Positions 32,478 through 32,880 of a stretch of DNA of 64,000 nt are shown here, one piece after another (position 1 is the stretch's first letter; each line of letters begins with the position of its first letter). The position numbers and the translations under genes are program-made. Below the pieces are notes generated by a model. It was not told the origin of the DNA, ran no database searches, and saw only the letters and a program-made list of their open reading frames with translations. Source of the DNA: Oscillospiraceae bacterium (GTDB lineage: Bacteria > Bacillota > Clostridia > Oscillospirales > Oscillospiraceae); the NCBI GenBank assembly GCA_015067835.1, contig SVLS01000003.1, forward strand, positions 50,883 through 114,882, written 5' to 3'.

Positions 32478-32566
32478 GGAGAGATGTCCGAGCGGTTTAA
32501 GGAGCTAGTCTTGAAAACTAGTGATACCGAAAGGTACCGTGGGTTCGAATCCCACTCTCTCCGCCA
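32478..32566 (+). tRNA. tRNA-Ser (anticodon TGA)
   Basis: GGAGAGATGTCCGAGCGGTTTAAGGAGCTAGTCTTGAAAACTAG...GGGTTCGAATCCCACTCTCTCCGCCA; long variable arm, encoded CCA. Confidence 0.98.
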
Positions 32567-32568
32567 GA

Positions 32569-32600
32569 AAAACCGACAAGTTTCGACTTGTCGGTTTTTC
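32569..32600 (+). terminator. tRNA-Ser terminator
   Basis: AAAACCGACAAG-TTTCGA-CTTGTCGGTTTTT. Confidence 0.9.
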
Positions 32601-32603
32601 AAC

Positions 32604-32781
32604 TAAATCCACCCCTTCGGGTGGGTGAAATATTGCTTCGCAATGTGAAATACGCCTACGGCGTGTGAAATTCGCCTCGACGGCGAGTGGGTGGATTTAA
32701 TTTCACATTTTGCCGAAAGGCAAAATATTTCATCCAAAACTTGTTTTGGATTTCACCGTGAGCGAAAGCGAACGATTTCAC
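32604..32781. repeat. Multi-hairpin palindromic element with GTGAAAT/ATTTCAC linkers
   Basis: Outer stem TAAATCCACCC (32604-32614)/GGGTGGATTTA (32689-32699); seven small hairpins separated by GTGAAAT x3 then ATTTCAC/ATTTCAT x4. Confidence 0.85.
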
Positions 32782-32848
32782 TAAAAGATGTGAAAGTTCA
32801 AATTCATACGCAAAACTACTGAAAATATCTTTTTCGTAGCCCATAGAC

Positions 32849-32880
32849 AAAAAAGCACTTGCTTTCGCAAGTGCTTTTTT
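32849..32880. terminator. Terminator at the 3' end of the cation-efflux gene
   Basis: AAAAAAGCACTTGC-TTTC-GCAAGTGCTTTTTT. Confidence 0.85.

Follow-up and report, generated by a model that had tools for sequence, protein, structure and literature searches.

The window, a stretch of 64,000 nucleotides from contig SVLS01000003.1 of an Oscillospiraceae bacterium, contains a tRNA-Ser gene followed by an array of seven short hairpins. A sequence-only reading had described these hairpins and their GTGAAAT and ATTTCAC linkers, and all of them were found at the coordinates it gave (Table 1). The extent that it assigned, 32604 to 32781, does hold the array but is only the middle of a module of ~283 nt (32567-32849), which consists of a terminator, the hairpin array and a 54-nt tail and is bounded by the CCA of tRNA-Ser on the left and a second terminator on the right. 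The terminator, the tail, the targeting of tRNA ends and the S23 gene described below were absent from that reading. Complementary heptamers stand at the start and end of the array (the one at the start is degenerate in the window); the whole module, from terminator to tail, has none at its ends. Two other RNAs were matched on the minus strand of the window, namely the large, rare OLE RNA (RF01071; 9631-10277, 442 bits) and a T-box leader (RF00230; 2237-2467, 103.6 bits).

Table 1. Features of the tRNA-Ser locus, in window coordinates
Feature	Position	Strand	Basis
tRNA-Ser (TGA), in front of the module	32478-32566	+	ARAGORN; Rfam RF00005
Terminator-like stem GAAAAACCGACAAGTTTCGACTTGTCGGTTTTTC, opens the module directly 3' of CCA	32567-32600	+	Sequence
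Rfam Gut-1 match, three hairpins and linkers	32600-32676	+	RF01706, 88.5 bits, gathering score 50
Outer stem, left arm TAAATCCACCC, overlaps hairpin 1	32604-32614	+	Sequence
Hairpin 1, CCACCC CTTC GGGTGG	32609-32624	+	Sequence, fold
Linker 1, GTGAAAT	32625-32631	+	Sequence; partner in fold is the last ATTTCAC
Hairpin 2, ATTGC/GCAAT	32632-32644	+	Sequence, fold
Linker 2, GTGAAAT	32645-32651	+	Sequence, fold
Hairpin 3, ACGCC/GGCGT	32652-32664	+	Sequence, fold
Linker 3, GTGAAAT	32665-32671	+	Sequence, fold
Hairpin 4, TCGCC/GGCGA	32672-32686	+	Sequence, fold
Outer stem, right arm GGGTGGATTTA, array mid-point	32689-32699	+	Sequence
Second half as Gut-1 on the other strand, below gathering score	32695-32783	-	RF01706, 38.3 bits
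Linker 4, ATTTCAC	32700-32706	+	Sequence
Hairpin 5, ATTTTGCC/GGCAAAAT	32707-32726	+	Sequence, fold
Linker 5, ATTTCAT	32727-32733	+	Sequence
Hairpin 6, CCAAAA/TTTTGG	32734-32749	+	Sequence, fold
Linker 6, ATTTCAC	32750-32756	+	Sequence
Hairpin 7, CGTGAGCGAAAGCGAACG, interior GA/GA mismatch	32757-32774	+	Sequence; found again in many copies
Linker 7, ATTTCAC	32775-32781	+	Sequence
Tail GTTCAAATTCATACG..AAAATATCTTTTTCGTAGCCCATAGACA, conserved, like a tRNA 3' end	32796-32849	+	Copies in other genomes
Second terminator, probably the tRNA's own, now displaced	32849-32880	+	Same 33 nt directly behind tRNA ends elsewhere

Folded as DNA, 181 nt comprising the array reached -42.8 kcal/mol, compared with -21.7 kcal/mol in shuffled sequences (z = -7.54). 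The RNA fold of the same 181 nt gave z-scores of -6.51 for the plus and -6.53 for the minus strand, the two strands being about equal. The hairpin array is not a chance structure. In the predicted fold, the left GTGAAAT linkers pair with the right ATTTCAC linkers, forming a ladder with the small hairpins at its junctions, and it is because of this pairing that the linkers flip to ATTTCAC in the second half. The linkers do separate the hairpins, as had been read, but in the fold they are not passive spacers. An outer stem enclosing the first hairpins had also been proposed; both of its arms are present, but the left arm shares six bases (32609-32614) with hairpin 1, so that stem and hairpin are mutually exclusive. 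Several hairpins, namely the one at 32757-32774 of the window and similar ones in relatives, keep tandem G-A mismatches (CTGAGGC/GCCGAAG, CGTGAGC/GCGAACG), which form a stable motif in folded nucleic acids.

Copies and variation of the array

A cmscan search identified the first half of the array as Gut-1, well above the gathering score and with agreement in three hairpins and the GUGAAAU linkers. Weinberg et al. (2010) rated Gut-1 as certainly RNA, non-coding and restricted to the human gut (PMC2864571). The earlier suggestion of a structured RNA has a counterpart in Rfam for the first half, but Gut-1 covers 77 nt of the ~283 and was described as a stand-alone non-coding RNA; the existing family provides a name but not a full description of the module.

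Gut-1 matches were present in 30 of 60 relatives, most of these genomes being metagenome assembled, with up to 48 matches per genome and many of them arranged as head-to-head plus/minus pairs. Under stricter settings, only three of 300 genomes across the phylum contained Gut-1, and the family is therefore largely confined to this order. The impression that such arrays are familiar from Oscillospirales proved sound, the related contigs being titled Oscillospiraceae or Clostridia. Copy number and fold z-scores together rule out a single-copy or chance array. The Gut-1 threshold was also passed by arrays with GTGAAGT (L204, L332), TGATATC-like (L152, L212) and GTTATAT/GTGATAT linkers (L214); an array with ATGATG linkers (L249) fell below it.

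The idea that stems are exchanged while linkers stay fixed was confirmed in 39 distinct relatives. Their 172 inter-linker segments included 90 distinct ones and had a mean of 4.33 closing pairs, compared with 0.65 after shuffling; at least four closing pairs were found in 66% of the segments (2% after shuffling). The array halves are also mosaic, as illustrated by one second half that was paired with five different first halves.

Placement behind tRNA genes and the conserved tail

We inspected the surroundings of 58 arrays, at loci picked by Gut-1 position. At most 110 nt downstream of an intact tRNA, and in the same orientation, were 25 of these arrays. Of the other 33, 6 lay behind tRNA 3' fragments and 14 behind nothing but a terminator; 13 had neither tRNA nor terminator by our own rules. 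Several more of the rest had short tRNA 3' remnants when inspected by eye. Fewer than 0.1 arrays would be expected behind tRNAs by chance, a rough estimate that assumes the ~45 tRNAs found per 2 Mb of genome. In these genomes, Gut-1 behaves as an interspersed mobile element, most copies of which follow tRNA genes, tRNA 3' fragments or terminators. Identity between modules begins directly after CCA, whichever the tRNA, and near-identical module starts were found behind tRNA-Gln, -Tyr, -Ser, and -Pro in other genomes.

One clean pair of filled and empty sites was obtained, at the orthologous tRNA-Tyr of two congeneric species of the window's genus. The empty site (L319, genome G073) reads CCA/GAAAAAAGACACACCTTTTGGTGTGTC..., with the native terminator directly after the tRNA, whereas the filled site (L332, genome G079) reads CCA/GAAAAACCGAC..array..tail..ATAGATA/GAAAAAAGACACACCTTTCGGTGTGTC.... 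The downstream sequence is common to both, as CCA/module/GAAAAAAGACACACC... in L332 and CCA/GAAAAAAGACACACC... in L319. The L332 module scores 52.2 bits as Gut-1, above threshold; no Gut-1 was matched in L319. This pair shows precise insertion of the L332 module between CCA and the native terminator. GAAAAA flanks the module on both sides, a sequence with which terminators begin anyway.

At the tRNA-Tyr site, 30 species had plain terminators, arrays, long stems, or palindromes whose end duplicates the tRNA 3' end. One such palindrome, in L325, lies between the tRNA and an older Gut-1 array, which shows stacking. A Gut-1 module was absent from the window's tRNA-Ser site in all 20 congeners, two of which (L380, L381) had arrays with other linkers. 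The search for empty sites that had been proposed earlier thus succeeded at tRNA-Tyr, but the 20 congeners provided no exact empty site for the window copy, as the downstream sequence turns over too fast.

Two further types of structure were observed at tRNA 3' ends. Terminator-fronted palindromes (L309, L325, L326, L310, L376, L379, L382, L383) form a second class, which begins with an inverted tRNA T-arm and ends with a copy of the tRNA 3' end. The third type comprises long stems of tandem TTCACTATT-like oligonucleotides (L316, L318, L321, L331, L253, L191), some of which have a tail or S23.

The tail contains a T-loop-like GTTCRAATTC and a CCA-like end, CCATAGACA or similar, that is followed by a terminator; this end is precise to ~1-2 nt. 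It was found in more than 116 stretches of public genomes from Oscillospiraceae and other Clostridia and is dispersed, at up to 97% identity, over several families of the order. The window tail is this universal sequence and not a copy of the 3' end of tRNA-Ser. A tRNA or tmRNA lay upstream on the same strand in 36 of 83 tails, mostly at a distance of 138-243 nt, and 16 of the remaining 47 tails were at contig ends. In two pairs of loci, the same terminator and array stand behind a tRNA end at one locus and behind a tail at the other: L253 (tRNA end) and L202 (tail) match at 95% over 216 nt, and L257 (tRNA end) and L196 (tail of a methylase gene) at 91% over 221 nt. The tail end is therefore equivalent to a tRNA end as the left boundary.

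A phage origin was rejected, the viral contigs having no exact match to the tail or the array pattern. Recombination inside the T-loop was likewise rejected because the tail has no native tRNA 3' sequence after GTTCGAA; a crossover at the CCA end fits better. In the reverse complement of L251 (~1311), the tail end reads GTAGCCCCTGCCA, like a hybrid of tail and tRNA-Trp, a resemblance that suggests exchange near the CCA end.

S23 genes, cargo and candidate enzymes

Related arrays lie 5' of a gene for S23 (PF05635, the 23S rRNA intervening-sequence protein). By hand count, 13 of 93 S23 genes started 141-219 nt downstream of a listed Gut-1 match on the same strand (~0.015 expected). Some S23 genes were preceded by hairpin arrays, with several linker types among them; others followed long stems or lay inside inverted repeats between operon genes. 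On the S23 tree, the linker or flank type changed eight times, the minimum for nine types, compared with a mean of 26.7 after shuffling; the linker labels were assigned by hand, aided by an unsupervised heptamer search, with a few judgement calls. The tree shows that array and S23 are inherited as one element. The congruence between S23 and linker follows from this co-inheritance and is compatible with, without proving, recognition of the linkers by S23.

The window copy and its genome had no S23 (PF05635) match; the window copy is therefore probably non-autonomous. S23 does adjoin sister arrays of the same linker type. At other loci, the interval from tRNA to tail contains one or two genes, for example an S23 gene overlapping an acetyltransferase gene, or a kinase-like gene, and other tails stand directly behind a gene for a methylase, a caspase-like protein or a serine recombinase (cargo names beyond Pfam hits were read by eye). 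S23 genes with inverted repeats of tandem oligonucleotides were also seen between operon genes, at probable purH/purD (L337, L340, L346) and probable deoC/pnp (L344, L348), names again read by eye; there, different species had the same flanking operon genes and different repeats, as in recurrent insertion at one site.

No transposase was seen adjoining the arrays, whose relatives encode S23 and cargo, no integrase gene lies between the window's tRNA-Ser and the tail, and we found no excision product, transposase or integrase for the module. Reverse transcriptase looks unlikely as the mover because the near-complete, array-rich genomes G039, G050, and G054 had no RVT_1 match. A large serine recombinase gene stands beside the tail in L217, L170, and L161, and in different genomes (L217, L170, L366) such a gene ends ~50 nt before the tail. 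Its close relatives occurred in only 3 of the 60 genomes; it was thus rejected as the common enzyme and treated as cargo. Tyrosine recombinases were present in all 60 genomes, with a single match in the array-rich G059, and are therefore not discriminating.

Interpretation and comparison with known systems

Comparison at the sequence level showed many copies, a precise filled/empty site, a preference for tRNA ends, the equivalence of tail and tRNA end, and co-inheritance of S23 clade and linker type. We consider it likely that the array forms the main part of a small mobile element, probably non-autonomous, that is associated with S23 and targets tRNA ends. The nonautonomous, REP/MITE-like palindromic element that had been proposed at the outset is supported by the many copies, the hairpin exchange and the filled/empty site. 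Insertion would be precise, placing the module after the 3' CCA of a tRNA or tmRNA gene and ahead of the terminator that belongs to this gene; the tRNA would stay intact and gain a new terminator. Fuller relatives have the S23 gene after the array and often one cargo gene ahead of the tail. Since the tail mimics a tRNA 3' end, further modules could insert behind it and stacks could grow. The folded ladder, with its paired linkers and junction hairpins, may be what S23 and the mobility machinery recognise, and the tail and tRNA end would be the recombination sites of an enzyme supplied in trans. Most likely, this trans-acting enzyme would recombine the CCA end of the tRNA with the tail end of the module, assisted by the folded ladder and S23, and an excised circle would carry the junction tail..ACA/GAAAAACC. 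More tentatively, the modules may belong to an undescribed integron-like cassette system, with circularisable modules and a site mimicking the tRNA end, in which each S23 protein would recognise the linker heptamer of its own ladder. Such a system would cover insertion and stacking at the 3' ends of tRNA and tmRNA genes, and its cargo would include an acetyltransferase, a kinase-like protein, a methylase, a caspase-like protein, and a nucleotidyltransferase with a regulator.

Passive REP-like palindromes, amplified in trans by a RAYT or IS200/IS605-type transposase with a preference for tRNA terminators, would also be short, numerous and mosaic; we regard this explanation as unlikely, given that the linked protein is S23 and not a transposase and that the modules measure ~280 bp and end in a tRNA-like tail. 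Somewhat less probable still is an RNA-mediated route, in which a transcript with the tRNA-like tail is copied by a reverse transcriptase and S23 acts like its relative Avd. PF05635 resembles Avd, the reverse transcriptase partner in diversity-generating retroelements (PMC10053308), the tail is like a tRNA 3' end, and mosaic arrays suggest template switching; the lack of RVT_1 in the three array-rich genomes named above speaks against it.

Two further readings place the array among host features. In the first, Gut-1 would be, as published, a true host gene for a structured RNA that stands alone, with only incidental spread; this is favoured by the rating of Weinberg et al. (PMC2864571), the strong RNA fold and the covariance model match. 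However, there are up to 48 copies, present or absent at orthologous tRNAs, the two strands fold about equally well, and the motif of the first half recurs in the second on the opposite strand. The array also stands behind a terminator, and a promoter scan gave one site before the tRNA, one weak match within the array and none directly before it. We therefore hold this reading to be very unlikely. Scarcely credible is the second reading, by which the structures serve the host in tRNA 3' processing or termination and evolve where they stand: it would account for the tight tRNA association but not for the wholly different or missing structures at the same tRNA in congeners, the same module behind tails of protein-gene cassettes, or near-identical modules behind different tRNAs in different genomes.

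If the array is indeed part of a tRNA-end-targeting mobile element, an Rfam family so far rated as certain RNA would need reclassification as a component of mobile DNA. S23, which for decades has been familiar mainly from the intervening sequences of 23S rRNA, would gain a recurring partner, a hairpin ladder with a linker type that matches the S23 clade; this match makes a binding test straightforward. The occurrence of the array in an S23-carrying family connects an RNA and a protein that both lack a known function, and it suggests a niche for gene cassettes at the tRNA ends of gut Clostridia. Within the literature library searched, no paper linked Gut-1, S23 and tRNA ends.

The array shares with Gut-1 (RF01706) its first 77 nt, with three hairpins and GUGAAAU linkers. 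Gut-1 was described as a lone non-coding RNA of uncultured human-gut bacteria, whereas here it is half of an inverted-repeat array within a mobile module with terminator and tail, present in dozens of copies and also in ruminant-gut genomes. The 23S rRNA intervening sequences have an S23 gene with imperfect inverted repeats, spread horizontally and are tied to stable-RNA genes (PMC4990558). The modules resemble them in the PF05635 gene, the imperfect inverted repeats, the horizontal spread and the association with stable-RNA genes, but sit behind the CCA of tRNA or tmRNA (tRNA-Ser in the window) instead of inside 23S rRNA and have a hairpin ladder 5' of the S23 gene, cargo genes and a conserved tail. 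Unlike tRNA-integrating islands, the window module has no integrase between tRNA and tail and does not duplicate the tRNA 3' end. Integron cassettes likewise combine one or two genes with a conserved site (attC) and stack at a fixed anchor; here the anchor is a tRNA 3' end, the tail does not look like attC, and no integron integrase was identified. Like MITEs and REPs, the modules are small, palindromic, non-coding and multicopy, with filled and empty sites, but they differ in the precise targeting of tRNA ends, in the tail, and in having S23 as the linked protein instead of a transposase.
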